This document shows positions 5,888-31,415 of a DNA stretch of 64,000 nt, in pieces. Position numbers and translations under genes: made by a program. The stretch is taken from assembly GCF_001886955.1 (NCBI RefSeq), contig NZ_CP016804.1, positions 1,736,001 to 1,800,000 on the forward strand, given 5' to 3'. The notes beneath the pieces are model-generated. The model searched no databases. It was not told the origin of the DNA and worked only from the letters and a program-made list of their open reading frames with translations. Position 1 is the stretch's first letter. Each line of letters begins with the position of its first letter. This stretch comes from Halodesulfurarchaeum formicicum (lineage in GTDB: Archaea > Halobacteriota > Halobacteria > Halobacteriales > Halobacteriaceae).

Positions 5888-5910
5888 CCAGGTCAATGCT
5901 ATGTTATAGC

Positions 5911-7839: not shown

Positions 7840-7942
7840 CGGGCGGTATGTTCGTCCGCGGCGGCCCTGTAGGTTGGGGGCACTTCCCACAGTTCGGGAA
7901 CGAGCAGGTGGACTGAACCGGTTCGGAAGTGTCAATCCTACT

Positions 7943-8581: not shown

Positions 8582-8622
8582 TTCTGGCTCGGGCCCCAGA
8601 TAACGATGACTACCGGATTCCT

Positions 8623-8634
8623 CCCCCCCCCCCC
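8623..8634. repeat. Run of twelve cytosines
   Basis: An uninterrupted C12 homopolymer lies in the gap between the hydrolase and the radical SAM gene, about 20-30 bases upstream of the ATG at 8656. Homopolymers of this length are rare in the window and are prone to slippage or sequencing error. Confidence 0.85.
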
Positions 8635-8655
8635 TTGTCCGGTCGAAGCCGGAAT

Positions 8656-9834
8656 ATGTTCGGGTATGGGCTCTTCCCGGAGAGTCCCAAAACGAACCCA
8701 ATGGGTCCACCGAACACCGTCGACACGAACGAACGGCCCTTCGTCCTCATCTGGGAGGTCACCCAGGCCTGTGATCTCGAATGCGAGCACTGCCGGGCCG
8801 ACGCCCAACCGGAGCGTCACCCACAGGAACTCAGTACTGCTGCGGGAAAGGCACTGCTCAGGGAGGCAGCCCGATTCGACGAGAATCAGCTGGTCGTTCT
8901 CTCCGGCGGCGACCCGCTAGCACGGCCGGATATTCCGGAACTAATCGAGTACGGCACGGACCTGGGGTTGCGAATGACCTTGACCCCCAGTGGCACGTCA
9001 TCCCTCGACCCAGCCGTCATCGATGACCTGGACGCAGCGGGCCTGAAACGACTCGCCGTGAGTCTGGACGGCTCCTCGCCGGCGAATCACGACACCTTCA
9101 GAGGCGAGCCGGGCACCTTCGAACAAACAGTAACAGCAGCTGAATACGCCGGCGAACAGGGCATCCCGCTCCAGGTGAACACCACGGTCTCGCAGTCCAC
9201 CGTCGATGACCTTCCGGCCATCGCCGACCTGGTCGAGGACCTGGGTGCGGTCCTGTGGTCGGTCTTCTTCCTCGTGCCGATCGGCCGCGGGCGGCTCCTT
9301 GAACCTGTTTCGCCGGAACGAGCGGAATCCGTCATGGAGTGGCTGCTCGATCAGGCTGCCGAGCGCTCCTTCGGGGTGAAGACGACGGAAGCACCACACT
9401 ATCGCCGCGTCGCGATCGAGGCCGAACGGTCCGCAGCCGGCACACCTGGGCCGGACGATGCGATCGGTCGCCGGGGCGGCGTCAGAGCGGGGGACGGATT
9501 CGCCTTCGTCAGCCACACCGGCGCGGTGTACCCCTCCGGGTTCCTCCCGCTTGCGGCCGGGTCCGTGCGGGAGTCCTCGCTGGTCGATATCTACCGGAAC
9601 AGCGAACTCTTCCAGGCACTTCGTGACGAGGACCGGTTTCGCGGGAAGTGTGGGGCCTGTTCGTACCGGACCGTCTGTGGCGGGAGCCGGTCACGGGCGT
9701 ACGCCGACACGGGCGATCCCTTCGAGAGTGACCCGCTCTGCCCGTATGTCCCACCTGACTATGAGGGCGACCGCCCCGAGCAAGCCGTTGCCTACGACCG
9801 CTCGGGACCGGCTGTGGACGGCCACGGAAATTGA
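8656..9834 (+). CDS. Radical SAM/SPASM domain protein
   Basis: About 392 residues. The radical SAM cluster motif is CDLECEHC (C-x3-C-x2-C). It is followed by SGGDPL, the SAM-binding GGD/E motif. The C-terminal SPASM-type cysteine region (CGAC, then CGGS and LCPY) would bind auxiliary [4Fe-4S] clusters. The architecture matches the AhbC/AhbD-related and TIGR04053-type proteins of archaea, which include enzymes of the alternative heme pathway; I cannot tell which member this is. The start could be 8656 or the ATG at 8701 (MGPPNT), since both precede the first conserved residues. No partner peptide gene is visible nearby, so a peptide-maturing role is not supported. Confidence 0.75.
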   Translation: MFGYGLFPESPKTNPMGPPNTVDTNERPFVLIWEVTQACDLECEHCRADAQPERHPQELSTAAGKALLREAARFDENQLVVLSGGDPLARPDIPELIEYGTDLGLRMTLTPSGTSSLDPAVIDDLDAAGLKRLAVSLDGSSPANHDTFRGEPGTFEQTVTAAEYAGEQGIPLQVNTTVSQSTVDDLPAIADLVEDLGAVLWSVFFLVPIGRGRLLEPVSPERAESVMEWLLDQAAERSFGVKTTEAPHYRRVAIEAERSAAGTPGPDDAIGRRGGVRAGDGFAFVSHTGAVYPSGFLPLAAGSVRESSLVDIYRNSELFQALRDEDRFRGKCGACSYRTVCGGSRSRAYADTGDPFESDPLCPYVPPDYEGDRPEQAVAYDRSGPAVDGHGN

Positions 9835-9867
9835 CTGTCGGCTGTCCTGAACGGCTCGGACGGGCGT

Positions 9868-15317: not shown

Positions 15318-15718
15318 GTGGTGGACTGGGTTGGTCTGTTGGTTAAAGGTGGGGGCTAGGCTTGGGGGTCGGATGTTATGAGATTGGGATGGGAGAGTGG
15401 GGTGGAATTTTTGAAAGTTCGCTCTGGTTAGATTTTGTGGTTGTTTGAGTTTGGGTGGGGAGTGCTTGCAGTAACGCCACCGCCCTCGAAAGCCCCCTCC
15501 CGCTCGGGTCGGTGCGGTCGTGGCGCTCCTCACTCGCGCTGCTCGTTGCGGTGCTTCCGTCCCGCGCCTTCCCCGAGCGGTCGGCCCCTTTCGGAGTCCC
15601 GCCACGTTCAGGAAATAGCTATGAAAACGGGTGTTTCTAACCAATGAATTATGACATTACCAACGGAGTAGGCGCTTTTTAGCAATTTCATGATGGCCTC
15701 AACCGACTATACTTATTC
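15318..15718. other. Intergenic boundary between AddAB-like operon and defence island
   Basis: About 400 bases without a convincing gene. It contains the AddB-like promoter (15343-15348), a G-rich stretch, the palindromic element described at 15487-15593, and then an abrupt fall in GC from about 15610 onwards, where the defence island begins. Open frames across it on the plus strand are arginine/serine/proline-rich shadows. Confidence 0.6.
15487..15593. repeat. Long GC-rich imperfect inverted repeat
   Basis: The left arm begins cgaaagcccc and contains cccgctcggg; the right arm contains ccgagcgg and ends gcccctttcg. Together the arms can fold into an imperfect stem of roughly 20 base pairs around a core of about 65 bases. 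The element sits exactly at the change from GC-rich to lower-GC sequence. The type of sequence is reminiscent of short repeats dispersed in haloarchaeal chromosomes, but copy number cannot be judged from one window. Confidence 0.6.
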
Positions 15719-17083
15719 TTACTTGAGGTTGAGCCGTGACAGGGTTTCCCGGATTCCCTCCTCCACTTCGCGTGCCTGTAGAATTCGTATCGGTTGTGAC
15801 CTTTCCGTTTGGTCCTCAAAAGAAATCGTCTCTTCCGAAAGATCTTGAACGACTAGCAACCCGTTCCAGCCGGAGCCGAAGTAGTCGTCATTGTCCTCCC
15901 GTCCGAAGACGAAATCTTCGTTCACTCGAAGGAACGCAAGGTATTCGAGTGTCTCTTTAATTCCTTGTCGTACTGTCTTCCTTCGCTTGCTATTCTTCAC
16001 TTCTGTAATCAAGTATTCGTACTCGTCATTCTCTTCGTCACGGATTTCGAGAACAATAACATCCGGTCGGCCAGTATGATCTTCAAAGTCTCTTTTAAAG
16101 TACGATTCCGCGACTTCGTGGGCCATAGTTTGAACTTTTTGGGCCCGTGGAATCGGATCCTCAAGTGTGCTCTCGCGTTCGGTCCGAAACGAAATATCGC
16201 GATCCCGTGCGGCCTGATCGTGATAGATCACCATCTCTGGCGATCCGGGTAATCTGGCGATTTCCTGCCGGCCCTGGCTGATCGTTTGGAAAGAAATACT
16301 TTCATCGCGCAGATCGTCTAAAACAGCGATAAATCGGAAGAGGACATACAATTCAAAAAGCGTGTCTTGGTTATCTGGGGCGATCGACGTAGATTTGAGC
16401 AATTGGCGGATTTCATTTTCTTCGCCACGAAATAGCCGGTTCCGACTGCGAAGTAAACCAGCTGCTTCTCGATAAAGCTCCTGTCGTGCGTTTTCTGCCG
16501 TTGTTAACATTCGCTCCGAAGGCTCATACTCCTCAGGAGAACGTATTCTTTTAATATTGACATTCCTTTCCATAATCGAGGTTAGTCTATCGATGAGCTC
16601 TCCATTTTCGTGCCACCGATCTTGTATCCAATCATAATCACGCCGGATGTACTCATCTGCCTCATTTAGGGTGCTATAGATCGTTTGGAGAAGATCAACT
16701 AAAACGATATTTTCCGGAATATCGAAGTCAACCGTCCGATTCTCCACGACGAACACTGAGGTGTCACGGGGATTCCGTGAATATCTTTGCTTATAAGTAG
16801 CGTTCCAATTGATCCGTCCATCAACACCTCCGCGGGATGTTCTCGCTGATCGCTCTGTTTCAGTCCGTATCCGACGTAGCCGCTCAGGTAGTTTCTCAAC
16901 AAAAGTAACGACGTCTTTTCGGAGAATAAAGTGAAGATCTAACAGCAGTTCATACTCATCGAACCGTTTGTCCAACTCCATTGGTTTGATCGTCTGGGCT
17001 ACTTCCCTCTCTGGAAAGTCTCCCGCCATCACGTAAGCGAGAATATCCTGAGTCAACGAATCTAGCAATTCCTGTCGGTTCAT
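15719..17083 (-). CDS. McrC-like nuclease of a McrBC-type restriction pair
   Basis: A 454-residue protein whose C-terminal third carries a PD-(D/E)XK nuclease site: GRPDVIVLEI (about residue 340) followed by ITEVKNSKRR (about 362). The N-terminal and middle parts are predicted helical and have no motif I recognise. It follows the McrB-like gene with an 8-base gap on the same strand, so the two form an operon. McrC proteins supply the nuclease that the McrB motor drives to cleave DNA with modified bases. Overall identity to classical McrC is not obvious; the call rests on the nuclease motif and the partner. GC is low compared with the flanks, consistent with transfer. Confidence 0.7.
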   Translation of the reverse strand: MNRQELLDSLTQDILAYVMAGDFPEREVAQTIKPMELDKRFDEYELLLDLHFILRKDVVTFVEKLPERLRRIRTETERSARTSRGGVDGRINWNATYKQRYSRNPRDTSVFVVENRTVDFDIPENIVLVDLLQTIYSTLNEADEYIRRDYDWIQDRWHENGELIDRLTSIMERNVNIKRIRSPEEYEPSERMLTTAENARQELYREAAGLLRSRNRLFRGEENEIRQLLKSTSIAPDNQDTLFELYVLFRFIAVLDDLRDESISFQTISQGRQEIARLPGSPEMVIYHDQAARDRDISFRTERESTLEDPIPRAQKVQTMAHEVAESYFKRDFEDHTGRPDVIVLEIRDEENDEYEYLITEVKNSKRRKTVRQGIKETLEYLAFLRVNEDFVFGREDNDDYFGSGWNGLLVVQDLSEETISFEDQTERSQPIRILQAREVEEGIRETLSRLNLK

Positions 17084-17091
17084 CTTCGATA

Positions 17092-20061
17092 TTAGTCCTC
17101 CTCGAAAGTAATCTGAAGCATCTCACTAGCTGCATCTTTGAGAGTCTCCGAATCGACGACATCTTGGAGTTTCGCGATACTCTCGACGATCTCTTGTCGT
17201 TTCGGCACTCCCTCCAATTGCGGGAATACATATGCAATGACCGCTCTCGTCAGCCGAGGCTTTAGCTTCCGATCGTCGTGATTCTCCACAAAGAGGACAA
17301 GGTCCCTCACGATCGCCGGGCCGATTGATCGGCCTTCTACAGCTGAATTTGTTCTTTGCCAAACTTGACCAACAGCGCGTAATTCCCGATCACTGAGATT
17401 GATTTCAAGGGCTTCATCGCCATCTTCCCATGCTGAGATATACTCCTCCATCAGGGTGTCGAGATTACCGTCGAGATCAGGAACACCAACCCGTATGAAT
17501 GCGAAACGCCGCATGAAGGCGTAGCTCATCTCGTACAGTGAAGTCTTATCATAGGTATTCATCGTCGCCAACAGACGCCACGAATTTGGGATCGGATATT
17601 GATTTTGTCGTGGACTCCCTTCGAGATCATTCACAGGTAGAATTTCAACTTCGTCTCCGTTTCGGGTATACGGGAGCGTAACTGGCTGTCCGGAAAGAAC
17701 GGTAAACAGTTGTCCGAACGCCTTGTCGATGTCAGCTCGATTCAGTTCGTCGATAACGAGTGGCTCGTTAATCGGAACATCATGGTGCGTATGGCGTAGC
17801 CGATTGAGGACGGTCCCGGGAGTGAAGGACAGGGACTCGCCAGAATTGGTGTCCTGACTCTCACTAGGCATATATCCGCCGACAGTATCAAACGTGGACC
17901 AATCAGCGGTAGCAGTCGTAACTTGGGATCCGGTGTAGAGGTGGGGATGCGATTCAGCGAGGTCTTGGGCTACTCGTTCAGCGATTTCAGTTTTCCCTGT
18001 TCCGGGAGGACCAGTCAGAATGACGTGCTTCCCCGATCGTATTGCTGCTTCAATCTCGTTAATTATCTCCTCGCCTTGATTGCCGGGGAAATACAACCCA
18101 TCTAATATTTCTGTTGAGAGATTGGGGTTTGCAGAATAGTGTATATTGACTGGTGAGCTTTCAGAAAGAGATTGAGCCAGTTCCTGGAGGATAATCCGAG
18201 GACGCTCATAGTCTAATTTCCCGTTTTCTGATCGGAAGGTTTGGAAGGAGCCCTGCGCGCCAATACCCTTTCCTACCTCTTCTTCACAGCGATCATTGAC
18301 CCTGCTGAATGTGAGGAGCCCCTCAGTTAGTGTCTCAATTTGATCCTCGATTTCCTCATCACTCTCCTCGAGGATAGTGATTGATTGGTCGATTGAAGTA
18401 ATGTCACTAGTGAGGAACAGCCGGTCGAAGCTCAAAATATACGGGAACGATTTGCCCTCATAAATCTCGTCCCACCACCAATCGTCCTCCACTGTGTAAC
18501 TTTGTCCGACAATACCTGCACCTATGAAACCCGCAGGTTGGGATTCGAGTGCCGGGTTTCCCGGTTCGGCTCGGGAATGGAAGAGTGCTAGATCTCCTTC
18601 AGAAACCTTGTTCCAACGATTTCTGTGTTCTTCACCAAATGAAATGGCCCGACGACGGAATGAGGTGAGCCAATAATCTGGAGGAGCTGTAAAGGTGTGA
18701 ACAGATATCTCGTCGGTATTGGCATTCAGGTAGTCTATCAGCGGATGCTGTACCTCATCCGCGCCCTGTCCTTCTGATACCACCGAATATTCCTCGTTAA
18801 ATATCGTCTTCAACTTTACATGATTGATATTTAACCTAGAAATCTCCGGAATCTCCGACTGGATATCTCTAAGGAGAGCCATATAGAGTACCTGGGAGGG
18901 ATCCAAGGCAAACAAAGAGCCAACGCCAAGATCCTCAGCCCGGTCAGACAACCATTCTTCATTCTCGTCGTACACGCGTTGGATTTGCTCAATAAGCACC
19001 TGCTCTTCTTTGGAAATTTCCGAGGCAGTTTGGACAGCGATGTTCTTCAACGGTTCTGTCCAATCGGAAACGATCGCCTTTGAGAGTTCAGAATGGAACT
19101 TTTGGATGTCTTCATCGGAATCTGATATTCGGTCCAATACATCGGCCGTGGCTTCTTCAACACCTTCGTATTCACCACTCTGAATGGGGCCAAAGGGATC
19201 CGTTTGTTCACCCGAATCCTCATCGAATGCGTCCAGCAGGTTCTCATAATGGCCGTCGTCGATTATCCTTTGAAACTCGCCCACTAATCGGGCTACTTCA
19301 TTGATCCAGGTTCTTGAAGACGGATTATCGTCTACTGAATATTCTTTGTGGCAAATCGACGAAGTGCCATAGAGATTGTTTTTTGACGTCAGTAAATCGC
19401 TAGTGAGTGGGATATTGCGTTCCTCAAATCCATCAACATCTACAACCGTACGTAGCAATTCGGCTCGGGTTGCAAGGATTTTCCTGGCTTTTGTCCGTCC
19501 GTATTCTTCTTGCAGATTCGTCATTCCCTGATTGAGTGTTAGAAAAACCGAATCATTCCCAGTGTCAAACAAATAGACAATATAGAGACCGTTTTTGGGG
19601 TCCGATGTTACTCGCTCATCAAAAATCCCGATCCAAGGAATGTTTGCCAGTCCACCATATCCGACTGATCCACGGATTGAGAGATGATCATAGGAAAGCG
19701 ATTGGTCAAGTATTTCGGGTATCTCATCTTTGATTATTTTGGCCGCCTCGTGGCTGAAATCATCTTTCTCTCTGGCTTCTGGGTAATCCCGAATAGCGAT
19801 TTCAAATAGATCCGCGATATCCTCCCCTGCATCGAGTAACAGCCGGTATTCCCCATCTCCATGAAACTTCACTTCCCCTTCATCCCGGAGTTCCTGAAGC
19901 GTTCGACGTAAGCCGGCCTCAATATTATCGTTATTGGGAAATTCTTCAGATAATATGGGTTTCAGTTCCGCTTCCAGCTCGCCCAACGTTACTTCCCGGC
20001 GCCCAGTTTCGGAAACCCATCGTTGTAATTCGTTTCTCACTACTGTTCGCCATTGAGACAT
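17092..20061 (-). CDS. McrB-like AAA+ protein with MrcB-like and EVE-like domains
   Basis: A 989-residue protein. The order appears to be: a winged-helix-like start (1-75); a region resembling the MrcB/DUF3578 domain (about 100-270, with YIVYLFDTG and FLTLNQG); a helical linker; an EVE/YTH-like segment (about 460-590) starting DYWLTSFRRR and containing GDLALFHSR; and a C-terminal McrB-type AAA+ motor with Walker A GPPGTGKT (near 683-690), Walker B LVIDELNRAD and a later ATMNTYDKTS in the position of the McrB NTxD signature. EVE domains read modified cytosine, so the pair is probably a modification-dependent restriction system. One sampled 60-base line has about 40% GC, far below the flanks. 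Confidence 0.8.
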   Translation of the reverse strand: MSQWRTVVRNELQRWVSETGRREVTLGELEAELKPILSEEFPNNDNIEAGLRRTLQELRDEGEVKFHGDGEYRLLLDAGEDIADLFEIAIRDYPEAREKDDFSHEAAKIIKDEIPEILDQSLSYDHLSIRGSVGYGGLANIPWIGIFDERVTSDPKNGLYIVYLFDTGNDSVFLTLNQGMTNLQEEYGRTKARKILATRAELLRTVVDVDGFEERNIPLTSDLLTSKNNLYGTSSICHKEYSVDDNPSSRTWINEVARLVGEFQRIIDDGHYENLLDAFDEDSGEQTDPFGPIQSGEYEGVEEATADVLDRISDSDEDIQKFHSELSKAIVSDWTEPLKNIAVQTASEISKEEQVLIEQIQRVYDENEEWLSDRAEDLGVGSLFALDPSQVLYMALLRDIQSEIPEISRLNINHVKLKTIFNEEYSVVSEGQGADEVQHPLIDYLNANTDEISVHTFTAPPDYWLTSFRRRAISFGEEHRNRWNKVSEGDLALFHSRAEPGNPALESQPAGFIGAGIVGQSYTVEDDWWWDEIYEGKSFPYILSFDRLFLTSDITSIDQSITILEESDEEIEDQIETLTEGLLTFSRVNDRCEEEVGKGIGAQGSFQTFRSENGKLDYERPRIILQELAQSLSESSPVNIHYSANPNLSTEILDGLYFPGNQGEEIINEIEAAIRSGKHVILTGPPGTGKTEIAERVAQDLAESHPHLYTGSQVTTATADWSTFDTVGGYMPSESQDTNSGESLSFTPGTVLNRLRHTHHDVPINEPLVIDELNRADIDKAFGQLFTVLSGQPVTLPYTRNGDEVEILPVNDLEGSPRQNQYPIPNSWRLLATMNTYDKTSLYEMSYAFMRRFAFIRVGVPDLDGNLDTLMEEYISAWEDGDEALEINLSDRELRAVGQVWQRTNSAVEGRSIGPAIVRDLVLFVENHDDRKLKPRLTRAVIAYVFPQLEGVPKRQEIVESIAKLQDVVDSETLKDAASEMLQITFEED

Positions 20062-20185
20062 ATTGTGTCCCGACTCTCCCGCGATTTATGTAATTGTATG
20101 GTATCCGCACATGGGTCAATTATATTCGGGAGGACCCCCACACAGCAAAGGCGATCGCCTGTCGGTTGGTTAAAGATGTGGGGGG

Positions 20186-20536
20186 TTATCCTCGCTCAGC
20201 AACTGAAAGGTAAAGTGCATAATTATCAGTCAATTCGCCGGTATCCCTGTCTTCAGTTCGCTGTAGATTGATTTCTACTCTTGTGCCATCGTCCTCGAAT
20301 TCGAGGAGAGCTTTGAATTTGCTCGCTGCCGCTTCAACGAAATCAGCTGTCCCTGTTACCCGAATATCAGACACCTCAGTCGCATACTTGCTTCCCGTGA
20401 ATCCGTTGGGTTTCGGGACAACGGTATCATTCAGTTCCTTTCCAGATTGTTCATCTAACCCGTCAAGCCATTTCATCGAATGGCGCTTGGTAATGTGGCC
20501 TGAATCCGTCGTGGGTAGGTCTTCCAATTCGTTCAT
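20186..20536 (-). CDS. Small hypothetical protein within the defence island
   Basis: A 116-residue acidic protein with no recognised domain. The C-terminal half (about 45-115) alternates hydrophobic and charged residues in a way that suggests a beta-rich fold. It contains no cysteines and no membrane segment. It lies between the McrB-like gene and the divergent methylase gene, about 125 bases from each. It could be an antitoxin-like, anti-restriction or regulatory protein of the island, but the sequence does not show which. An ORF of this length in lower-GC DNA with a sensible composition is likely real. Confidence 0.5.
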   Translation of the reverse strand: MNELEDLPTTDSGHITKRHSMKWLDGLDEQSGKELNDTVVPKPNGFTGSKYATEVSDIRVTGTADFVEAAASKFKALLEFEDDGTRVEINLQRTEDRDTGELTDNYALYLSVAERG

Positions 20537-20661
20537 ATTTACCCATTGTTCCGTTTTCCTATTTGAACTTCCGCAGGGTTCGTTTGAGAAACGAACCGAA
20601 CGACAAGGACAGACAATGGGTCCACCAAACTATATGAAACCTGGACGAATCGGATGGTAGT

Positions 20662-23600
20662 ATGCCATCTTCGTTTCTCGATTCAAGAACTGGCCGCCGG
20701 TGGGACTACGACCGGGGCGGCGATGAGTTCGAATATTATCAAGGAAGTGGCGCAAGTCAACTCGAAATTGCAGTTGCCGATCACGGCGAACGACCGACGA
20801 AAGAGTTCCTCCGGAAGACGTACACTGACCGACGAGGGAACCGTGCGAACCCGATTTTGATCGTCGCGATCTACGATGACAAGGTTGGCCTGTGTGGGCC
20901 GAGCGGTGAAGAGCCGCCGATCTACCGCGATGTTGACCGCGGACAGGCTGAGCGCGTGTGTGAGGCCGCGCTAGACAAACCAGACCGCTTCACCGCTCAG
21001 CAGTTCCTTAGCGAAATGCTTCCTCAACTCGACGAGGAGCTCACGGGACTCCGTAACCAAGGCCTCCTCTCGACCCACGAGCTTCGCGTTGGAGTACCCG
21101 AGCGTGATGATTGGGTAGATGCGACGAAACAGGCCCGACACGCCCTAGATGACGATGACCCGCGAGAGATGGTCAAGGGGCTGAACTACGAGATCGATCA
21201 GCTCACCGACCAGAGTTACGTCCTCAGGGATACCAGCGACGGTCACGAGCGGGCGGTCGCCATGTTCCTCCAAGAGGACGAATCGTTCGACCACGCACAG
21301 GATCGGTTCGTGGGTCAGTCGCCGGTGGCCTACGCGCTCAATGAAGCGGACAAGCGGAACCTGGATTACGTCATCGGAAGTAGCGGTGACACGCTCCGGC
21401 TGTACACGACGAACCCCGACGAAGGTTTCGGGTCGCGCGGTCGTACGGACACCTACGTCGAGGTGAACACGAACCTGCTCGCGGACGACAAAGCCGCGTA
21501 CCTTTGGCTACTATTCTCCGCGAACGCGCTCCGTGACGACGGGACGCTCCACGACATCATGGAGCGGTCGAAGGATTACGCCGCCGACCTCGGGGCTCGT
21601 CTTCGAGAGCGCATCTACGACGATGTCGTCCCTGATCTCGCGGAAGCCATCGCTCGGGCTCGTGATCTTGAGGACCCGACGAAAGAGGATCTCGACCAGA
21701 CCTACGAGATGGCACTTATCCTGCTATACCGACTTCTCTTCATCTCCTACACCGAAGACGAGGAGTTCCTCCCGCGGCGGCGCAACGCCCGGTACGACCA
21801 GGAATCGCTCAAGCGCAAAGCCCGCGACCTCCACGAGTTCGTACAGGACGACGGCGAGTTCGACGAGAACTTCTACGACCACTGGGACGACGTGATGCAC
21901 CTCTCCCGTGCCATCCATCACGGTCACGACGAGCTCGGCCTTCCTGCGTACGATGGGCGGCTTCTCTCTGAGGACCCAGAAATCTCCGAAGCCGGCGCAA
22001 GACTCGCTGACATCCGGCTCGACAACTCCGAATTCGGACCGGTACTTGTGAACCTCCTCATCGACGAGACCGAGGACGGCTACCAGGGGCCCGTCGACTT
22101 CCGAAATATCGGCGTGCGCGAGTTCGGAGTTATCTACGAGGGACTCCTCGAATCCGAACTCTCACAGGCCGATCAGCCGCTCACCGTAGACGACGGACGC
22201 TACGAGCCCGTCAGTACTGACGGACAGCAAACGCTGGGTGAGGACGACGGTGTGGTCGTCCAGGAGGGGGAGGTGTATCTCCACGGGCAGTCCGGCGAAC
22301 GTAAGGCGACCGGAACGTACTACACCAAGACTCGGTTCGTCGAGCATCTGCTGGACTACTCGTTGGAACCCGCGCTCGACGACCACATAGAACGCATTGA
22401 CCGACTCCGAGAAGAAGAGGGTGAGAACGCCGCCGCGGACGCGTTCTTTGACATCCGAGTGGCCGACATCGCGATGGGTTCGGGACACTTCCTCGTGGGT
22501 GCCGTTGACCGAATCGAGTCACGGCTCTACTCGTACCTCACCGAGAATCCGCTGCCGCCTGTCGAGGACGAACTGGACAATCTCGAAGACGCCGCCCTGG
22601 ACGCCTTCGACGACGAAGAGTACGCGCCACCGGTCGAACGTGGGCAACTACTCCGGCGGCAGGTCGCGCGACGGTGCATTTTCGGCGCTGATCTAAATCC
22701 CCTGGCGACGGAACTCGCTCGACTGTCGATCTGGGTCCACACGTTCGTTCCGGGCCTTCCGCTGACGTTCCTCGACTACAACCTCGTGACCGGCGACTCG
22801 CTCGCGGGAATCGGGACACTAGACGAGGTAACGGACATCCTTGACGTGGATCAAACGTCGCTGGGGATGTTCGCCGGCGGACAGAGTGTAATGAATGAGG
22901 TGCGTGAGGACATCTCTCGACTCGGCGACTTCGCTGACGCGAGCGCCGAACAGGTACAGGAGGCCCGGGAAACCCGCGGGGAAATCGAAGACAGTCTCGA
23001 ACAAGTCCGAGCGAGGTTCGACATTCTCGCGGCATCACGTATTGACGATGAGATTGATACGGACGCCGTTTCGGATACGAGTATCGAGGACGTAACCGAA
23101 CTACCGAGTTACGAGCGGGCACAGGAGATACTGGAATCAACTAATCCGTTACACTTCCCGGCAGCGTTCCCTGAGGTGTTCGACGGTGAGAGTTCTGGTT
23201 TCGACGTTATCGTTGGGAATCCACCATGGGAGAAAACACAAATTGAGCGTCATGAGTTCTGGGGGCGCTACCATCCCGGGCTCCGGGGCGTCTCTCAACG
23301 AGAGCGTGAAAGTATTATGGATGATCTGGAGACAGAGCGACCCGACCTTGCTGCCGAGTTTGAGCGTCTAAAAGATGCGGAGGAGAAACGCGGGAAGATA
23401 CTTACGAACGGCCCCTATCCAGGCATCGGAAAGTCACATCCCGACCTGTACAAGGCGTTCTCGTGGCGGTTTTGGAATCTCGTGAATAGGGACGGAGATG
23501 TAGGTGTTGTCCTCCCACGCAGTTGTTTCATCGGTCCAGGGATGGAACAATTCCGCCGTCGAGTTCTGGATGAGGGAGAAGTCCTTGATTTGACCTTTCT

Positions 23601-24792
23601 CAAAAATAAGGCGGGCTGGGTGTTCGATGGAGTTGAACCTCGGTACACTATTGCGCTTTTTTCGTTCCATCGAACACGGTCCAGTACAGATCCTGAACTA
23701 CCTATCAGGGGACCATATGACGATGCCCCAAGCTATGAGAAGGCCATGGAACAGAGTCCCTACAGATTCCCTGCTGAACGGGCGAAAAAATGGGGAGGTA
23801 CTGCAACAATTCCCCTCCTTCCGGATGACTTGAGATCTGTAGATGTATTTGACACCCTTGAGGGTCATACATTCATCGGCGATGATTCGGCTGAGTGGTA
23901 TCCAGTTCCCTATCAGGAGCTGAATGCAACTCAAGATAAGAAAGCCGACGACGGGACCAGAATAATGCATATGATTGAGGACCCCCCGGACAGCTACTGG
24001 CCGGTGTATAAGGGGGAATCCTTCAATATCTGGACCCCTCGCGCAGGTAGTGTATATGCCTGGGCAGATCCAGATGTCCTGGTTGATTATATGCAGGATA
24101 AAAGAGAAGGATCCTATCGGTATGCTGGCAGTCGCTCACCATTCTCTGACATGAGTGAGGAATGGGTATACGACGAAGAGACATTACCATGTTTCTCGCC
24201 AAGAATCGCATTCCGAGACATAGCTCGGCGAACAGATAGTAGAACTGTACTCTCCTCGCTTATTCCACCAAAAACCGTTATGGTGCATAATTCACCCACC
24301 CTGATCTTTCCGCAAGGAAATCAGGAAGATGAGGCATATCTTTTGGGAGTCCTCAGTTCGATCCCCCTCGATTGGTATGCGCGTCGCTTCGTTGAGGCAC
24401 ATGTTACGTTCGGGATTTTCAACACTCTCCCTCTGCCCCGTCCGGGGCGCGAGGATCGCCTACGCCAGCGTGTCGTCGAACTCTCCGGCCGCCTCGCTGC
24501 TGTCGACGACCGCTATGCCGATTGGGCCGACGCGGTCGGCGTTGACTACGGTCCCCTCGACGAGGACACCAAACAGGAGAAGATCTACGAACTCGACGCC
24601 GTCGTCGCGCATCTCTACGGTCTCTCCCGTGAGCACGTCAAGGTAGTCTTCGAGACGTTCCACGACGGCTGGGACTACGAGGAGCGTCTCGAACGCGTGC
24701 TCGACTATTACGAGGAATGGGCGGACCGACTCGATCTCGACCACGCCGACCGCGAGGCGGAACGAGCGGCTGGTACACGCAACGATGACTGA
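20662..24792 (+). CDS. Large adenine-specific DNA methylase, DrmMI/Eco57I-like
   Basis: A 1376-residue N6-adenine methyltransferase. The SAM-binding motif I is ADIAMGSGHFL (about 602-612) and the catalytic motif IV is GNPPWE (about 853-858). A long N-terminal region (1-560) is helical and charged. The C-terminal third should hold the target-recognition domain. Size, motif order and an overlapping SNF2-type helicase gene resemble DrmMI of class 1 DISARM, but also Eco57I-like and type ISP enzymes. No nuclease motif was found in this chain. GC falls to about 45-47% in sampled lines near 23,900-24,100 against 57-62% in sampled lines on either side, as expected if the recognition domain was exchanged. 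It overlaps the helicase gene by 8 bases. Confidence 0.85.
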   Translation: MPSSFLDSRTGRRWDYDRGGDEFEYYQGSGASQLEIAVADHGERPTKEFLRKTYTDRRGNRANPILIVAIYDDKVGLCGPSGEEPPIYRDVDRGQAERVCEAALDKPDRFTAQQFLSEMLPQLDEELTGLRNQGLLSTHELRVGVPERDDWVDATKQARHALDDDDPREMVKGLNYEIDQLTDQSYVLRDTSDGHERAVAMFLQEDESFDHAQDRFVGQSPVAYALNEADKRNLDYVIGSSGDTLRLYTTNPDEGFGSRGRTDTYVEVNTNLLADDKAAYLWLLFSANALRDDGTLHDIMERSKDYAADLGARLRERIYDDVVPDLAEAIARARDLEDPTKEDLDQTYEMALILLYRLLFISYTEDEEFLPRRRNARYDQESLKRKARDLHEFVQDDGEFDENFYDHWDDVMHLSRAIHHGHDELGLPAYDGRLLSEDPEISEAGARLADIRLDNSEFGPVLVNLLIDETEDGYQGPVDFRNIGVREFGVIYEGLLESELSQADQPLTVDDGRYEPVSTDGQQTLGEDDGVVVQEGEVYLHGQSGERKATGTYYTKTRFVEHLLDYSLEPALDDHIERIDRLREEEGENAAADAFFDIRVADIAMGSGHFLVGAVDRIESRLYSYLTENPLPPVEDELDNLEDAALDAFDDEEYAPPVERGQLLRRQVARRCIFGADLNPLATELARLSIWVHTFVPGLPLTFLDYNLVTGDSLAGIGTLDEVTDILDVDQTSLGMFAGGQSVMNEVREDISRLGDFADASAEQVQEARETRGEIEDSLEQVRARFDILAASRIDDEIDTDAVSDTSIEDVTELPSYERAQEILESTNPLHFPAAFPEVFDGESSGFDVIVGNPPWEKTQIERHEFWGRYHPGLRGVSQRERESIMDDLETERPDLAAEFERLKDAEEKRGKILTNGPYPGIGKSHPDLYKAFSWRFWNLVNRDGDVGVVLPRSCFIGPGMEQFRRRVLDEGEVLDLTFLKNKAGWVFDGVEPRYTIALFSFHRTRSSTDPELPIRGPYDDAPSYEKAMEQSPYRFPAERAKKWGGTATIPLLPDDLRSVDVFDTLEGHTFIGDDSAEWYPVPYQELNATQDKKADDGTRIMHMIEDPPDSYWPVYKGESFNIWTPRAGSVYAWADPDVLVDYMQDKREGSYRYAGSRSPFSDMSEEWVYDEETLPCFSPRIAFRDIARRTDSRTVLSSLIPPKTVMVHNSPTLIFPQGNQEDEAYLLGVLSSIPLDWYARRFVEAHVTFGIFNTLPLPRPGREDRLRQRVVELSGRLAAVDDRYADWADAVGVDYGPLDEDTKQEKIYELDAVVAHLYGLSREHVKVVFETFHDGWDYEERLERVLDYYEEWADRLDLDHADREAERAAGTRNDD

Positions 24793-27700
24793 ACGCAGTC
24801 GCTTCGAGCGCCCACAGTTCGTCGATAACCGGAGCGGGAACACGCTCGCTACGGCGATCAACGGCTACCTCGAGGAGATCGACGACCGCCTCGCCGACGA
24901 TCCAGATTTGGACGTCGTGACCGGCTACTTCAACCCGCGGGGCTACTTCTCGGTCGACGAAGGACTGGGGCACGTCGATCAAGTCCGACTCCTCATCGGT
25001 GCCCAACCGGAGTACGAGGGGACCGAACGGTGGCGGCAACCAGGCGATCCGCTGGACGAGGAATACGACCAGAAGCGGATCAACGATGCGCTCCAGCGAC
25101 TCGATGAGAATCTCGAACAGGACCGGAATCTGCTGGGGTTCTCACGCGAAATGGACGAGAATCTACAGGACCTCGTGGAGTTCCTTAATAGCGACCGCGT
25201 GGAGATTCGTCGGCACGAGGACCGATTCATCCACGGGAAGGCCTACCTGTTTTCCGACCACGAGGGCGTCATCGCTGGTTCGTCGAACTTCACCGGTGCC
25301 GGCCTGAACTCGAACCTCGAACTCAACCTCGGCACGTACGACCCGCACGTCACGGGGAAGGTCCAGGACTGGTTCGACGACCTCTGGAACGAGAGCGAAC
25401 CGTTCGATCTCGCCGGACTATACGAGGAACGGTTCGAGCCGTACGACCCGTATCTCGTCTACCTGCGCGTGCTCTACGAGCGATACGGTGAAGAGCTTGA
25501 GGAGGAACGCGACGAAGAGGGTGGCATCGGCCTCACGACCTTCCAGGAGGATGGTGTCCGCCGAGCGAATCGGTTCCTCGACGAACACGGTGGCGTCATA
25601 GTCGCAGACGAGGTCGGCCTCGGGAAGACATACATCGCTGGCGAATTGCTCCATCAGTACGTCCACGAAAACCGCCAGCGGGCGCTTGTTGTCGCCCCAG
25701 CGTATCTCCGGGACGGGATGTGGAACCGCAAACCCAGCGAGTGGGGCATCCAATTCGAGACGATCTCCTACGCCGAACTCCGAAACGACAGCCAACTCGG
25801 TGGCGACGCCAACAACCTGGATCTTGAGGTTGACGAATACCAGCTGGTCGTCATCGACGAGGCACACGCGTTCCGCAATCCAGGGACCCAGCAAGCGGAC
25901 GCTCTCCGTCGCCTCCTCCGTGGCGACCCTCCAAAGGACGTGGTGATGCTCACGGCAACCCCGGTCAACAACTCACTGTGGGATCTCTACTACGAACTCA
26001 ATTACTTCATCAAAAACGACGCCGAGTTCGCCCACGAGGGCATCCGATCGCTTCGTGAGCGGTTCAAACAAGCGCAGGCAGAGGACCCGTCGGATCTGAG
26101 TCCCGATATGCTGTTCGACGTGCTTGACGAGACGACCGTCCGTCGGACTCGTCAGTTCATCAAAAGTCACTACGAGAACGCCACGATGCCGGATGGCGAG
26201 GGTGGCTCTATTCGGATTAGTTTCCCTGACCAGCATCCACAGCGTGTGGATTACGAGTTCTCCGAGACGTTCGGCGACGAGTACTTCGGGGATATCGCTC
26301 GTGGACTCGCAGCGGCCGACCACGAGGAAGCTGAACTGACACTAGCTCGCTATCGTCCATCGTACTACTTGGAAGGCGAAGAGGATAGCTCTGAGCTGTC
26401 GTTGGTGGGGCTGCTCCGGACAGGACTACTCAAGAGATTCGAATCATCAAGCCACGCGTTTGCGAACACGCTGAACCGAATGATCGGGCAAAACCGGGCC
26501 GCGCTCCAGCTCATGGACGAGGGGTACTTCCCGGACACCGATGCGATCGACGAGTGGATGGAGACTGACAGCGATGAGGCCTGGGACGAACTCCTCGAGG
26601 AGGCTGAGGGCCATCATATCCCGCTTGCTGCTGCTGAAACAGACCCGAATCAGCTCCGTGCGGACCTCGAACACGATATCGAGATTCTGGAACGATGGCA
26701 CGACGGTGCGCGCGCTGTGACTCGTGAACAGGACGAAAAGCTCCACGCCCTCCGCGACACGCTTCATGATGTCGTAGAACTGGCCCGAAAAGATGCTGAG
26801 ACAGAGGGGGCTGCAGACGATACCGTGGAGGCTGCGTTCCGACAGAACCGGAAGGTCTTGTTGTTCTCCTACTACGAGGACACGGTCGACTGGATCCTCG
26901 ATTACCTAGAAGACATCGTCGCCGAGGACGATGAACTCTCGTGCTACGAGGGACGTATCGCCGGGGTGTCAGGTGATGATTCCAAGTGCGGTGTCTCAAG
27001 AGAAGACGCAGTCTACGGGTTTGCTCCGAACATCTCTGACGCACCGCCGGATGCAACGGACGACTTCGATATTCTCGTGACCACGGACGTCCTCGGTCAA
27101 GGGGTTAATCTCCAGGAAGCCCGCACAGTCATCAACTACGATTTGCCCTGGAATCCGATGCGTGTGGTACAGCGGAACGGTCGTATCGACCGCGTGAACT
27201 CGCCGCACTCCGATATCTACCCGATCTCGTTCTTCCCGGAGGATCGACTGGATGAACTGCTCGAACTCGAACATCGGGTCCGACGGAAGCTTACACAAGC
27301 GGCTCGGTCGATCGGCGTCGACAGTGAAGTGATTCCAGACATGGAGACGTTAGAGCAAAACTTCTCGGACAAGCTCGAAGAGATTGGGTCCATCCACAAT
27401 GAGGAGGAGGAACTCTACGAGCAGGGTGGGACAGAGGCAGCAGCCTATTCAGGCGAGGAGTACAGGCAGGAACTCCGAAAGGGGCTGCAAACCCGAGAGG
27501 ATCAGATTACGTCACTCCCGTGGGCGGCAGGGTCGGGATTTAAAGGCGAGAACCCGGGTTACTTTTTCTGCGCCAGGATCGGCGACGAGGTGTTCATGCG
27601 ATTCGTTCCGAAGGGGTGGGACGAGATTGAGCGGAGTGACGACAAAGATGTCTTGATCCAGGACACACTCACCTGCCTCAAACGAATCGAGTGTACAGCC

Positions 27701-28186
27701 GAAACGGACCGCACCCTCCCCGGCCGGATGCGTGAGCGAGTCTACGACGCCTGGGAGGTCGCCAGGGGCGACATCTTCCAACAGTGGCAAGAGCAAACCG
27801 ATCCGTTGAACGTACAGCCGGACATCCGTAAGCTGTTCAGGGAAGTCGGCCAACATCTCCGGGACCATTGGCCCAGCGAAATGACGGGTAAGAAGCTCCA
27901 AACGACGGTTTCTGCCGTTGAAGCCCCGTGGCCTCGTCGATACGAGCGCGAACTCCGTGAAATCTTCAAGAATGACGCCCTCGGACCAGTCGAGAAGTCA
28001 CGAAAACTCGTAGAGAAAGTGGACGACTTGGGACTACAACCGTACGAAGCGCCGGACCCACTTCCACAACTCGAAGAAAAAGAGGAAGTAAAGCTCGTGA
28101 CTTGGATGGTCGTCGCGCCGGAGGAGAACGGAACAACGGAACAAGATAAACCTAAACTCATGTCCCAGATGACATTCGAATCATAG
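24785..28186 (+). CDS. PLD-nuclease/SNF2-type helicase fusion, DrmD-like
   Basis: A 1133-residue protein. Residues about 1-230 form a phospholipase D-like domain with one HKD-type motif (HGKAYLFSD, then AGSSNFT, about 149-170). Next come superfamily 2 helicase motifs: ADEVGLGKT (about 275), VIDEAHAF (about 357), LTATPVNN, and in the second lobe TTDVLGQGVNLQ and VQRNGRIDR (about 795). The C-terminus (900-1133) is unassigned. In class 1 DISARM, DrmD is a SNF2 helicase and DrmC a separate PLD protein; here both functions are in one chain. Translation is coupled to the methylase by an 8-base overlap, so the pair probably forms one restriction-modification or DISARM-like complex. Confidence 0.85.
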   Translation: MTERSRFERPQFVDNRSGNTLATAINGYLEEIDDRLADDPDLDVVTGYFNPRGYFSVDEGLGHVDQVRLLIGAQPEYEGTERWRQPGDPLDEEYDQKRINDALQRLDENLEQDRNLLGFSREMDENLQDLVEFLNSDRVEIRRHEDRFIHGKAYLFSDHEGVIAGSSNFTGAGLNSNLELNLGTYDPHVTGKVQDWFDDLWNESEPFDLAGLYEERFEPYDPYLVYLRVLYERYGEELEEERDEEGGIGLTTFQEDGVRRANRFLDEHGGVIVADEVGLGKTYIAGELLHQYVHENRQRALVVAPAYLRDGMWNRKPSEWGIQFETISYAELRNDSQLGGDANNLDLEVDEYQLVVIDEAHAFRNPGTQQADALRRLLRGDPPKDVVMLTATPVNNSLWDLYYELNYFIKNDAEFAHEGIRSLRERFKQAQAEDPSDLSPDMLFDVLDETTVRRTRQFIKSHYENATMPDGEGGSIRISFPDQHPQRVDYEFSETFGDEYFGDIARGLAAADHEEAELTLARYRPSYYLEGEEDSSELSLVGLLRTGLLKRFESSSHAFANTLNRMIGQNRAALQLMDEGYFPDTDAIDEWMETDSDEAWDELLEEAEGHHIPLAAAETDPNQLRADLEHDIEILERWHDGARAVTREQDEKLHALRDTLHDVVELARKDAETEGAADDTVEAAFRQNRKVLLFSYYEDTVDWILDYLEDIVAEDDELSCYEGRIAGVSGDDSKCGVSREDAVYGFAPNISDAPPDATDDFDILVTTDVLGQGVNLQEARTVINYDLPWNPMRVVQRNGRIDRVNSPHSDIYPISFFPEDRLDELLELEHRVRRKLTQAARSIGVDSEVIPDMETLEQNFSDKLEEIGSIHNEEEELYEQGGTEAAAYSGEEYRQELRKGLQTREDQITSLPWAAGSGFKGENPGYFFCARIGDEVFMRFVPKGWDEIERSDDKDVLIQDTLTCLKRIECTAETDRTLPGRMRERVYDAWEVARGDIFQQWQEQTDPLNVQPDIRKLFREVGQHLRDHWPSEMTGKKLQTTVSAVEAPWPRRYERELREIFKNDALGPVEKSRKLVEKVDDLGLQPYEAPDPLPQLEEKEEVKLVTWMVVAPEENGTTEQDKPKLMSQMTFES

Positions 28187-28582
28187 TACCGAATTAGCCA
28201 ATCTTGTAATAGAAAATATTGGCATTTGCTAATTTTCTCACCTAATGATTTGAGAATAGAATCGATTTTTCCGAAACACACCCAAATCAGCGCTTCGCCC
28301 ATTATTCCCTGCGGATCACACGATGTCGCAAACTGTGTCCAATCATGGGTCGCCTGGAATCTACAGCCAATACCGTCTTTCAGGCCCTTCGTTTCGAAAA
28401 TTTCAGAACTTCAAACGACCGAAACCGAAAAATACCGAACGCACCAAATTGCCATGGCTTTGAGCGGATTCGAACCAGAGTCGCTTCGGTCGTCCCCTGC
28501 TTCGAATCCGTCTGAACCCATTCTCACACGGTGCCGCCCCTAACCACCAAAAATACTGCATAAAATAAGAGCATAATAGCAT
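28187..28582. other. AT-rich tail of the island with a tRNA-like T-arm fragment
   Basis: About 400 bases of A/T-rich sequence with no supported gene. At 28464-28476 it holds gcggattcgaacc, identical to 13 bases of the tRNA-Val T arm at 28748-28760. A short frame through this piece gives a peptide with SGFEPES, a kind of false ORF often seen over tRNA-like sequence. The fragment could be a remnant attachment site or chance similarity to the conserved T arm. Confidence 0.4.
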
Positions 28583-28733: not shown

Positions 28734-28739
28734 GTGCAT

Positions 28740-28811
28740 GGGTTCGGGCGGATTCGAACCGCCGATCTCGTCCTTGTAAGGGACGCGTCATAACCACTAG
28801 ACCACGAACCC
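28740..28811 (-). tRNA. tRNA-Val (anticodon TAC)
   Basis: Read on the minus strand, the 72 bases fold into a full cloverleaf. The acceptor stem is GGGTTCG pairing with CGAACCC. The D arm contains GGTCTAGTGGTTATGAC. The anticodon stem is CGTCC/GGACG with loop CTTACAA giving anticodon TAC. The T arm is CGGCGGTTCGAATCCGCC-like with loop TTCGAAT. CCA is not encoded. The 3' end of the gene faces the defence island, the usual side for integration at tRNA genes. Confidence 0.95.
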
Positions 28812-28884
28812 AGTACCGGAGAAAGCCCGTCCTGGCTTTTAAAGCTTCTTGCTCGCGGCGAGAACCCGGACGAATTTCGCCTCG

Positions 28885-28892
28885 CTTATATT
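28885..28892 (+). promoter_or_regulatory. TATA box for formate dehydrogenase gene 1
   Basis: cttatatt lies about 27 bases before the ATG at 28919, the spacing expected for a leaderless haloarchaeal transcript. It is the only A/T-rich patch between the tRNA and the gene. Confidence 0.6.
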
Positions 28893-28918
28893 GGAGCACG
28901 CCGAACCACGAAAGTAGA

Positions 28919-30964
28919 ATGGCAACATCCAGCGACGGTGAACTGGAGCCGAAGAAGTCCATCTGTCCCTTCTGTGGGGTCGGATGTGGACTGACCTACA
29001 ACGAAGACAACGGCAAGGGCACCGGCTGGGAGGGGCCGGTCAACACCCGCGGCGAGCTCTGCCCCAAGGGGGCGGCCGCCTTCGAGATGCTCGATGCGGA
29101 CGACCGCATCACCCAGCCGATGGTCCGGGAGAACGGCCATCTGGTCACCGCCTCCTGGGAGGAGGCCATGGACCGCGTGGCCGAGAACTTCGGGGAGATC
29201 GTCGAGGAACACGGCCCCGAGGCCCTGGGCTTTTTCGCCTCCTCGAACTGCACCAACGAGGAGAACTACCTCCTCCAGAAGATCGCTCGCAAGATCGGCA
29301 CGAACACGATCGACAACTGCGCGCGACTCTGCCATGCCTCCACGGTCGCCGCGATGGGCAAACAGCTCAACGTCGGCGCGATGACCAACACCACCGACGA
29401 CCTGGGCGAGGCCGACGTCTTCCTCGTCTGCGGGGCCAACCCCGCCGAGCAGCACCCGGTCATCTTCAACTCCTATCTCGGGGCCGCCCTGCGGGATGGC
29501 ACCGAGATGGTCCACATCGACCCGCGGGAGAACCAGACCACCCAGCAGGCCGACATGCACGTGGGTGTCACCCCGGGCTATGACATCCCGGTGCTGAACG
29601 CGATGGCGAAGGTCATCATCGAGGAGGAACTCCACGACGAGGAGTTCGTCGCGGAGCGCACCGAGGGCTTCGAGGCTTTCGAGGAGCATCTCGCCGACGT
29701 CGACGTCGCCGAGAACGCCGAACTCGCGGGCGTGCCCGAGGAGAACATCCGCGAGGCCGCACACAAGGTCGCCGAAGCCGACCGCGTGGCCTCCTTCACC
29801 GGCATGGGCATGAGCCAGCACAAGTACGGGACGGACAACGTCCACGCGCTCATCAACCTCGTCCTGCTCACGGGCAACATCGGCAAGCCCGGGACGGGTG
29901 TGAACCCGCTCCGCGGCCAGAACAACGTCCAGGGCGCGGCCGACGTGGGCGCGAGCCCGAGCTCCCTGCCGGGCTATCAGTCCGTCGAGGACCCCGAGGT
30001 CCGGGCCGACTTCGAGGAAGCCTGGGGCTTCGAGCCGCCGGCCGAACCCGGCCTGACCGAGGTCGAGGCCAGTCACGCGGCGGGCGACGAGATCCAGGGC
30101 CTGTACGTGTTCGCCGAGAACCCCGCGATCACCGAACCCCACTCCGACCGGATTCACGAGGACCTCCAGGAGGCCTTCCTGGTCGTCCAGGACCTCTTCA
30201 TGACCGAGACGGCCGAATACGCCGACGTCATCCTGCCCGGGAGCGCCTGGGCGGAGAAGGAGGGGACCTACACCAACACGGACCGTCGCCTGCAGCGGGT
30301 CCGACAGATGCGCTCCCCGCCCGGGGACGCCAAGTCCGACCTGGAGATCATCGCCGAGTTCGGTCGTCGGATGACCGACCTGGAGATCGACTATGACGGT
30401 GCCGAGGCGGTCTTCGATGAACTCGCGAGCGTGAGCCCGATCTACGCGGGCATCACCTACGACGGTATCGGCGAGAGCTACCAGCGCTGGCCGTTCTACG
30501 AGGGGGCCGAATCCGGCGTGGACATCCTGCACGAGGACGAGTTCTACGGCGGCGAGAAGACCGCCCCGTTCGCGCTCGTCGAGCATATCGACCCGGGCGA
30601 CGAGGTCGAGGAGGGCGAACTCGTGCTGACCACCGGGCGGGTCATGCAGCACTTCAACAGCGGGGCGCTCTCCCGTCGCACCGAGACCCTGATGCGCATG
30701 CGCGGCGAGGACGTCCTGGAGATGCACCCCACGGACGCCGAGGAACGTGGCATCGAGGACGGCGACTGGGTGCGAGTCGAGAACGAGCGCGGCGAGGTCG
30801 AGGTCGAGGTCGCCGTCACCCCCGCCATCGCCGAGGGGACGGTCTTCATGACCTTCCACTACGCCGACCCGCTCGTCAACCGCCTGACCGGCGACTACCT
30901 CGATCCGGTCGCGAAGATCCCCGAGTACAAGCACAGCGCCGTCTCGGTCTCGAAGACCGAGTAG
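28919..30964 (+). CDS. Formate dehydrogenase catalytic subunit (copy 1)
   Basis: A 681-residue molybdopterin oxidoreductase. Cys16, Cys19, Cys23 and Cys48 are the ligands for an N-terminal [4Fe-4S] cluster. CARLCHASTV places Cys138 as the Mo/W ligand with His139 beside it, the formate dehydrogenase pattern with cysteine instead of selenocysteine. A C-terminal molybdopterin dinucleotide-binding domain (about 560-675) ends YADPLVNRLTGDYLDPVAKIPEYK. There is no Tat signal, so it should be cytoplasmic. No beta or gamma subunit gene is adjacent, and the electron partner is unknown. It is followed by a cupin and the methyltransferase gene, which fits oxidation of formate released from the folate pathway. 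Confidence 0.9.
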   Translation: MATSSDGELEPKKSICPFCGVGCGLTYNEDNGKGTGWEGPVNTRGELCPKGAAAFEMLDADDRITQPMVRENGHLVTASWEEAMDRVAENFGEIVEEHGPEALGFFASSNCTNEENYLLQKIARKIGTNTIDNCARLCHASTVAAMGKQLNVGAMTNTTDDLGEADVFLVCGANPAEQHPVIFNSYLGAALRDGTEMVHIDPRENQTTQQADMHVGVTPGYDIPVLNAMAKVIIEEELHDEEFVAERTEGFEAFEEHLADVDVAENAELAGVPEENIREAAHKVAEADRVASFTGMGMSQHKYGTDNVHALINLVLLTGNIGKPGTGVNPLRGQNNVQGAADVGASPSSLPGYQSVEDPEVRADFEEAWGFEPPAEPGLTEVEASHAAGDEIQGLYVFAENPAITEPHSDRIHEDLQEAFLVVQDLFMTETAEYADVILPGSAWAEKEGTYTNTDRRLQRVRQMRSPPGDAKSDLEIIAEFGRRMTDLEIDYDGAEAVFDELASVSPIYAGITYDGIGESYQRWPFYEGAESGVDILHEDEFYGGEKTAPFALVEHIDPGDEVEEGELVLTTGRVMQHFNSGALSRRTETLMRMRGEDVLEMHPTDAEERGIEDGDWVRVENERGEVEVEVAVTPAIAEGTVFMTFHYADPLVNRLTGDYLDPVAKIPEYKHSAVSVSKTE

Positions 30965-30983
30965 GCAGCCCCGGCGGTCGATC

Positions 30984-30991
30984 TTTTTATA
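30984..30991 (+). promoter_or_regulatory. TATA-like box / T-rich stretch before the cupin gene
   Basis: tttttata lies about 23-30 bases before the ATG at 31014 and about 20 bases after the formate dehydrogenase stop. It could serve both as a T-rich terminator of the first gene and as the TATA element of the second. Confidence 0.5.
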
Positions 30992-31013
30992 CGAGGCGGA
31001 CGAACGGCCGGTG

Positions 31014-31415
31014 ATGGCGGAGAACTTCAAGATCGTCGATCCGGATTCGGTCCCGGAGACGCCGTTCCCGGAGTCGGGCGTGACTCACACCAAACTCAGC
31101 GGCGAGTTGCGGGCCCAGGAGATGCGGATCAATCAGGTCACCGTCGACCCAGGTGAGGTCGTCGGCTATCACAGCCACACCCGCCAGGAAGAGATCTACG
31201 TCTGTCACAGGGGGCCGGGCGAGGTCTACATCGACGGCGAGCACTACGAGGTGCCGGAGGGTGGAATCGTGCGGATCGGCTGTGATGTCCCCCGACAGGT
31301 GTTAAATACTGGTGAGGAGCCGACAGTCTGGATCATGTTCGGGGCCCCGCCGATCGGAACCGTCCAGGACTTCGGGGAGTACGAGGTCGCCGAGGGCGGC
31401 TACGACGAGGCGTAG
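31014..31415 (+). CDS. Small cupin domain protein
   Basis: A 133-residue single-domain cupin. The first cupin motif is clear (GYHSHTRQEEIYVCHRG), with two histidines and a glutamate as metal ligands. The second motif, where a histidine is usual, reads GCDVPRQVLNTG, so the fourth ligand appears to be missing or replaced. A role in sensing or binding a small molecule, or a metal-dependent isomerase-like reaction, is possible. A GTG lies 3 bases before the chosen ATG. It is placed between formate dehydrogenase and the MttB-family methyltransferase, with its own TATA-like element. Function unknown. Confidence 0.75.
   Translation: MAENFKIVDPDSVPETPFPESGVTHTKLSGELRAQEMRINQVTVDPGEVVGYHSHTRQEEIYVCHRGPGEVYIDGEHYEVPEGGIVRIGCDVPRQVLNTGEEPTVWIMFGAPPIGTVQDFGEYEVAEGGYDEA

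Follow-up and report, generated by a model that had tools for sequence, protein, structure and literature searches.

In the window analysed here, a 64,000-nucleotide stretch of the genome of the haloarchaeon Halodesulfurarchaeum formicicum (contig NZ_CP016804.1, positions 1,736,001 to 1,800,000), two overlapping genes on the forward strand encode a putative restriction-modification (RM) system built from a large adenine methylase and a helicase with a fused nuclease domain. The first gene (20662..24792, + strand) encodes P0001 (1376 aa), a predicted N6-adenine DNA methyltransferase that carries a target-recognition domain of its own and is matched by Pfam Eco57I at 63.8 bits and by the PADLOC profile REase_MTase_IIG (PDLC03620) at 878.5 bits over residues 51-1350. 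Its N-terminal region (aa 1-561; 20662..22344, + strand), modelled by AlphaFold with a predicted local distance difference test score (pLDDT) of 85.5, has an alpha/beta and helical make-up, perhaps an inactive nuclease-like fold, and a hypervariable target-recognition region follows at aa ~870-1290 (23269..24531, + strand), flanked on both sides by conserved sequence. The second gene (24785..28186, + strand) encodes a fusion of a PLD nuclease and a SNF2 translocase (P0002, 1133 aa), with Pfam matches to PLDc_2, SNF2-rel_dom, and Helicase_C that, like the Eco57I match, lie above the Pfam cut-offs, and with a PADLOC match to C3a139 HKD+Snf2 at 189 bits. Both open reading frames (ORFs) are free of internal stops. 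They share the eight bases ATGACTGA (24785..24792, + strand) and lie where a preliminary description of the region as a two-gene RM-like unit had placed them, with the overlap length it had given. The same 8-base overlap recurs in five other haloarchaeal loci and a 4-base overlap in eight further loci, including three actinobacterial plasmids; an overlap of one or the other length is present in 14 of the 17 loci measured.

The residues expected of an active methylase, nuclease, and motor are intact. The methylase motifs DIAMGSGHF (602-610) and NPPW (853-856) are invariant or nearly so in both the haloarchaeal and the cross-domain alignments, and the helicase ATPase motifs are invariant in archaeal and bacterial members, the best PDB profile matches of P0002 being RapA and other Snf2 structures. 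The PLD (HKD) nuclease domain, defined by the PLDc_2 match at aa 129-201 of P0002 (25169..25387, + strand), carries H150, K152, N168, and E179, all invariant in sets of 13 and 20 aligned homologues, and these residues match the active residues of Nuc, BfiI, and other dimeric PLD nucleases in kind and spacing. As the domain is a single HKD half-site, it must dimerise. A Pfam search returned no SRA or other reader domain in P0002 and no Methylase_S match in the pair; the methylase and recognition region form one protein, unlike the separate HsdM and HsdS of type I systems, and membership of type I was rejected on this ground.

The pairing of the two genes is obligatory. All 27 subfamily helicases examined, with 37-100% identity to that of the window, are directly preceded by methylase sequence on the same strand; the set, the window included, comprises 15 haloarchaea, eight bacterial genomes or plasmids, three viral contigs, and one other archaeon. 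Chance is a poor explanation for an adjacent gene order that is found again in 26 other genomes, plasmids, or contigs. The search of haloarchaeal genomes suggested in the preliminary description did recover a conserved unit, with a full-length or nearly full-length subfamily helicase in 15 of 292 genomes (its own included) at 64-100% identity, one of them (G139) split by a frameshift. Pairs outside the haloarchaea keep the same gene order at about 37-50% identity and range to Actinomycetota and acidobacterial-type metagenome-assembled genomes; they were found on plasmids of Rhodococcus erythropolis R138, Euzebya pacifica, Mycobacterium gallinarum, and Paenarthrobacter aurescens TC1, in Nonomuraea solani, and in three bacterial metagenome-assembled genomes. 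Neither this occurrence in bacteria nor the domain exchange described below formed part of the preliminary description. In G319, from another part of the phylum, the helicase lies at a contig end and is preceded by the last 72 residues of the methylase. Of the three contigs from a viral collection that carry the pair, one is 73-77% identical to the window's; this 88.7-kb contig (L187, IMGVR_UViG_3300027007_000012) may be a virus or a plasmid. No conserved third gene accompanies the pair, and the flanks are mixed, often consisting of plasmid or transposon genes.

Two loci show additional genes. On the Euzebya pacifica plasmid (L163), an annotated phosphorothioated-DNA-binding restriction endonuclease (12384-13232), not seen in other members, overlaps the helicase end by four bases. 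Halorubrum lacusprofundi plasmid pHLAC01 (G064; L062, L075) bears a second, truncated methylase copy of 1022 aa about 130 kb away, with 99.3% identical DNA over 3.5 kb, adjoining two copies of a 434-aa gene that flank an HNH-like gene.

Sequence divergence within the methylase is strikingly uneven. Pairwise identity of the helicase follows that of methylase residues 1-850 closely, with r = 0.96 among haloarchaea (the outlier L070 left out) and r = 0.95 across domains, whereas identity in residues 870-1290 shows no relation to identity elsewhere in the pair (r = 0.02 among haloarchaea and 0.03 across domains); past residue 1300 the sequence is conserved again. Loci L065 and L063, for instance, share 90% identity in the helicase and 92% in residues 1-850 of the methylase, 46% in residues 870-1290, and 80% in residues 1300-1354. 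The C-terminal region of the pair on a Halalkalicoccus plasmid belongs to another class altogether, being 46% identical to that of Mycobacterium gallinarum and 20-25% to every other member tested. This second C-terminal recognition class (L070/L169 and L164) is common to a haloarchaeal and a mycobacterial plasmid. To judge from these comparisons, two C-terminal classes cross the divide between archaea and bacteria, and residues 870-1290 display the pattern of the exchanged target-recognition domains of RM systems. No other observation speaks as strongly for a sequence specificity that is set by the methylase and diversified by exchange.

Two natural knock-outs of the methylase bear on the control of the nuclease. 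In G051, all that is left of the methylase is a 118-codon C-terminal piece preceded by a transposase-like ORF. The methylase of G259 is interrupted at contig ends by an apparent IS66-family transposase. Both genomes keep an open helicase ORF. Such cells should not survive a nuclease that is active in its own right. Cutting therefore probably requires the methylase, and the simplest reading is that, as with type I enzymes, the nuclease has no action except through it.

The pair and an adjacent McrBC-like pair lie on an exchangeable island (15602..28515, no strand assigned), bounded by synteny with the sister species G001 on both flanks (1-15601 at 91%; 28738-31262 at 97%, preceded by weaker similarity that starts at 28516). 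In G001, the island is replaced by about 10 kb encoding a type I RM system (HsdR, HsdS, and HsdM) and a Ppl-like protein (L175/L176). At this site, which adjoins a tRNA-Val gene (28738-28812), one defence cassette has been substituted for another. No direct repeat of at least 14 bases was found at the island ends, nor a repeated portion of the tRNA-Val gene inside it. The McrBC-like pair (15719-20061, - strand) comprises a 989-aa McrB-like GTPase that combines MrcB_N and a DpnI_C-type helix-turn-helix, and a 454-aa partner without a Pfam match. With linkage in only 2 of 14 relatives, these genes were rejected as a component of the system and are taken as neighbours; similar genes occur near the pair in L064 and L070. 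An AddAB-like pair, consisting of a UvrD helicase with PD-(D/E)XK and a second PD-(D/E)XK protein, also lies in the window (9868-15311, - strand) and at L074 (610-6049); it is syntenic in the sister species, and its homologue in G139 directly adjoins the methylase/helicase unit.

It is likely that the pair constitutes a two-subunit, ATP-dependent RM system, resembling type I and type ISP systems in logic and cutting with a PLD nuclease. This proposition draws on the pairing in all 27 members, the co-divergence of the two proteins around a swapped domain, the invariant catalytic residues, the type I hsdRSM operon that stands in its place in G001, the helicase ORF that stays open after methylase loss, and the proven restriction by a PLD nuclease and SF2 ATPase in SauUSI (PMC7913695) and in CglI and NgoAVII (PMC4267653, PMC5737866). 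In such a system, the methylase would serve as modification and specificity subunit in one, finding its sequence through the C-terminal recognition domain and methylating an adenine at the site to mark host DNA. When the methylase meets an unmodified site, the helicase would engage and form a complex with it, cutting being directed by recognition that the methylase supplies. The SNF2 motor, fuelled by ATP, would then move along the DNA, and the PLD domain would break it as a dimer, thereby defending the host against viruses and plasmids.

Several points weigh against this proposal. The knock-outs number only two, and the survival of these cells also fits a helicase gene that is silent or subject to a polar effect. 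AlphaFold predicted the whole helicase poorly (pLDDT 65), giving a model unusable beyond the Snf2 fold, and no methylome, restriction, or binding results were found for any member.

The alternative that fares best, though still unlikely, is an uncoupled system in which the methylase merely protects the host and the PLD-helicase is an independent effector sensing some property of invading DNA, such as free ends or replication intermediates, as has been proposed for DrmAB in DISARM. DISARM helicases respond to the structure of DNA and not to a sequence site (PMC9142583), and the helicase of the pair is distantly related to DrmD. However, the two proteins co-diverge tightly and their genes overlap, and an independent effector blocked by methylation should forbid the very state found in G051 and G259, where the helicase is intact without the methylase.

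Very unlikely is a self-sufficient type IIG enzyme within the methylase polypeptide, assisted by an accessory helicase, even though the methylase falls into the PADLOC type IIG profile with 878 bits. Foldseek searches with its N-terminus gave weak, non-significant matches, among them to the type IIG enzymes DrdV and BpuSI and to HsdR (E 0.009-0.07). Across 12 cross-domain homologues, residues 1-545 contain neither an invariant lysine nor a conserved D..(D/E)xK, non-canonical catalytic residues being possible, whereas the PLD site of the helicase is fully conserved and the helicase itself is always present. A self-contained type IIG nuclease in this region was therefore rejected, given the unconserved catalytic lysine and the non-significant Foldseek matches; the methylase probably has no nuclease activity, and cutting probably falls to the PLD domain.

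As to named families, the preliminary description had likened the methylase to DrmMI and the helicase to DrmD in size and order; a close tie to DISARM is not supported. Against the PADLOC profiles, the methylase scores 878 bits with type IIG over nearly its whole length and 236 with DrmMI, and the helicase scores 189 bits with the unvalidated and uncharacterised 'HKD+Snf2' profile and 130 with DrmD; the NCBIfam DrmD equivalog gives 158.5 against a cut-off of 610. A control haloarchaeal locus with clear drmA and drmB genes (L076) reached 337 bits with DrmMI and 365 bits with DrmD. The helicase of this DISARM-like locus (G144:C20) scores higher still with BrxHII than with DrmD. The other observations of the preliminary description, namely that a PLD domain is fused to the helicase N-terminus and that drmA and drmB are absent, were both upheld. 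Neither of these genes nor a separate drmC lies beside the pair, and profile searches of the whole 2.09-Mb window genome gave no match to MZB/DUF1998 (for which the search did find matches in eight genomes as a control), DUF499, or PglZ. In 14 other haloarchaea, no MZB or DUF499 gene is near the pair, those present being on other contigs or at least tens of kilobases off; DUF3780 gave zero matches in 15 genomes, the control likewise giving none. Membership of DISARM was accordingly rejected for want of drmA and drmB (MZB) and because the DrmMI and DrmD scores fall below those of other families and of the control locus, membership of BREX for want of PglZ in the genome, and membership of the DUF499/Hma type 2 systems because DUF499 is missing from the genome and unlinked to the pair in the 14 relatives. 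ARMADA, in which a YprA-family helicase accompanies a BrxHII-like helicase and a PglX-like methylase, was rejected as well, there being no YprA-family helicase gene beside the pair and BrxHII not being the preferred profile of the helicase, which scores higher with HKD+Snf2 and DrmD.

These results also make it scarcely credible that the pair is what gene loss has left of a larger system, whether DISARM, BREX, or the DUF499-centred BREX-Related/Hma type. Homologous types of methylase and helicase do occur in those systems (PMC12839542, PMC12458937), but the two-gene form is conserved across two domains of life with its active sites intact, away from MZB and DUF499 genes. Least probable of all is a modification-dependent, type IV-like arrangement in which the PLD-helicase attacks modified foreign DNA and the methylase has another purpose, for although SauUSI has the same order of PLD and SF2 domains (PMC7913695), P0002 was found without a reader domain and is obligatorily coupled to a methylase with a variable recognition domain.

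The pair is thus a real, conserved, and unnamed two-gene RM-like system, for which we infer both the molecular steps and a role in defence. Nothing found places both proteins in a named system with the same fusion, and no paper naming the two-gene unit was found among the open-licence literature. HVO_A0079 of Haloferax volcanii, a 1088-aa putative type IIG protein (PMC5867850), was considered as a studied homologue but is not claimed as a member. Whether the pair represents a distinct restriction class of archaea and bacteria is, in our judgement, an evenly balanced question; in such a class, a methylase-specificity protein would license a PLD-tipped Snf2 motor, restriction would depend wholly on the methylase, and specificity would change by exchange of a single domain, with two domain classes passing back and forth between archaea and bacteria. 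PLD-Snf2 helicases that are more distantly related (25-33% identity) also have other methylase-like genes nearby, both in several haloarchaea and elsewhere among the archaea of the phylum; the pair may therefore be a single branch of a wider class that is poorly named. At L077, L078, L079, L080, and L199-L204, these distant helicases measure about 1050-1270 aa, and some are separated from the methylase-like gene by extra genes.

If the proposed two-subunit RM system is correct, the pair would rank with the smallest RM systems that use a motor, one protein doing the work of both HsdM and HsdS and the other joining motor to nuclease. The unit is catalogued only in halves, as a 'type IIG' methylase and a 'helicase-related protein' (RefSeq names the latter so in the plasmid records and the methylase 'hypothetical protein'), and genome surveys therefore probably miscount it. 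It may also act as a foreign-DNA barrier in haloarchaeal and actinobacterial genetics, and was found listed nowhere as such. Its recurrence on plasmids across domains, together with the natural domain swaps and methylase knock-outs, offers a ready test of the licensing of a PLD-tipped motor by a methylase.

The comparison with known systems sets the pair apart from each of them. Type ISP enzymes such as LlaBIII and LlaGI share motor-driven restriction with recognition drawn from a methylase and target-recognition module. They are single polypeptides with an Mrr-type nuclease, whereas the pair consists of two proteins with a PLD nuclease, and membership of type ISP was rejected given the two ORFs with their 8-base overlap. 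DISARM class 1 (drmD-drmMI-drmA-drmB-drmC) likewise combines a large adenine methylase, a SNF2 helicase, and PLD nuclease activity, but the pair is devoid of drmA and drmB, has its PLD domain fused to the helicase, and scores far below the control locus. The methylase belongs over its full length to the PADLOC type IIG family PDLC03620; that profile treats it as self-contained, yet here it has no conserved nuclease site and always has a helicase-nuclease partner. An exchangeable recognition domain in the methylase and a paired nuclease, features of RM systems in general, are both present in the pair.

CglI and NgoAVII demonstrate ATP-dependent PLD restriction by two proteins (PMC4267653), a PLD nuclease and an SF2 ATPase acting together with a methylase alongside, but their R protein joins the PLD nuclease to a B3 recognition domain, the ATPase is separate, and the site is recognised without the methylase (PMC4267653, PMC5737866). 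SauUSI establishes that a protein with an N-terminal PLD nuclease and an SF2 motor is capable of translocation and of cutting as a dimer, which forms via the PLD domain; unlike the pair, it is a single type IV protein whose SRA domain reads 5-methylcytosine without a methylase partner (PMC7913695). A closer published relative of the helicase design than DISARM is the HKD-Snf2 helicase of the DUF499-centred type-2 BREX-Related systems, relatives of 'Hma' and proposed RM systems, in which a 2026 survey described an HKD (PLD) nuclease on the N-terminus of a Swi2/Snf2 helicase beside an N6-methylase (PMC12839542). P0002 likewise carries an HKD nuclease at its N-terminus. The type-2 systems, however, are always built around the DUF499 ATPase and nearly always include DUF3780, whereas DUF499 is neither in the window genome nor linked to the pair in its relatives; their methylase is of BrxXI-type derivation with an internal target-recognition insert (PMC12839542), and the variable region of the pair follows NPPW.

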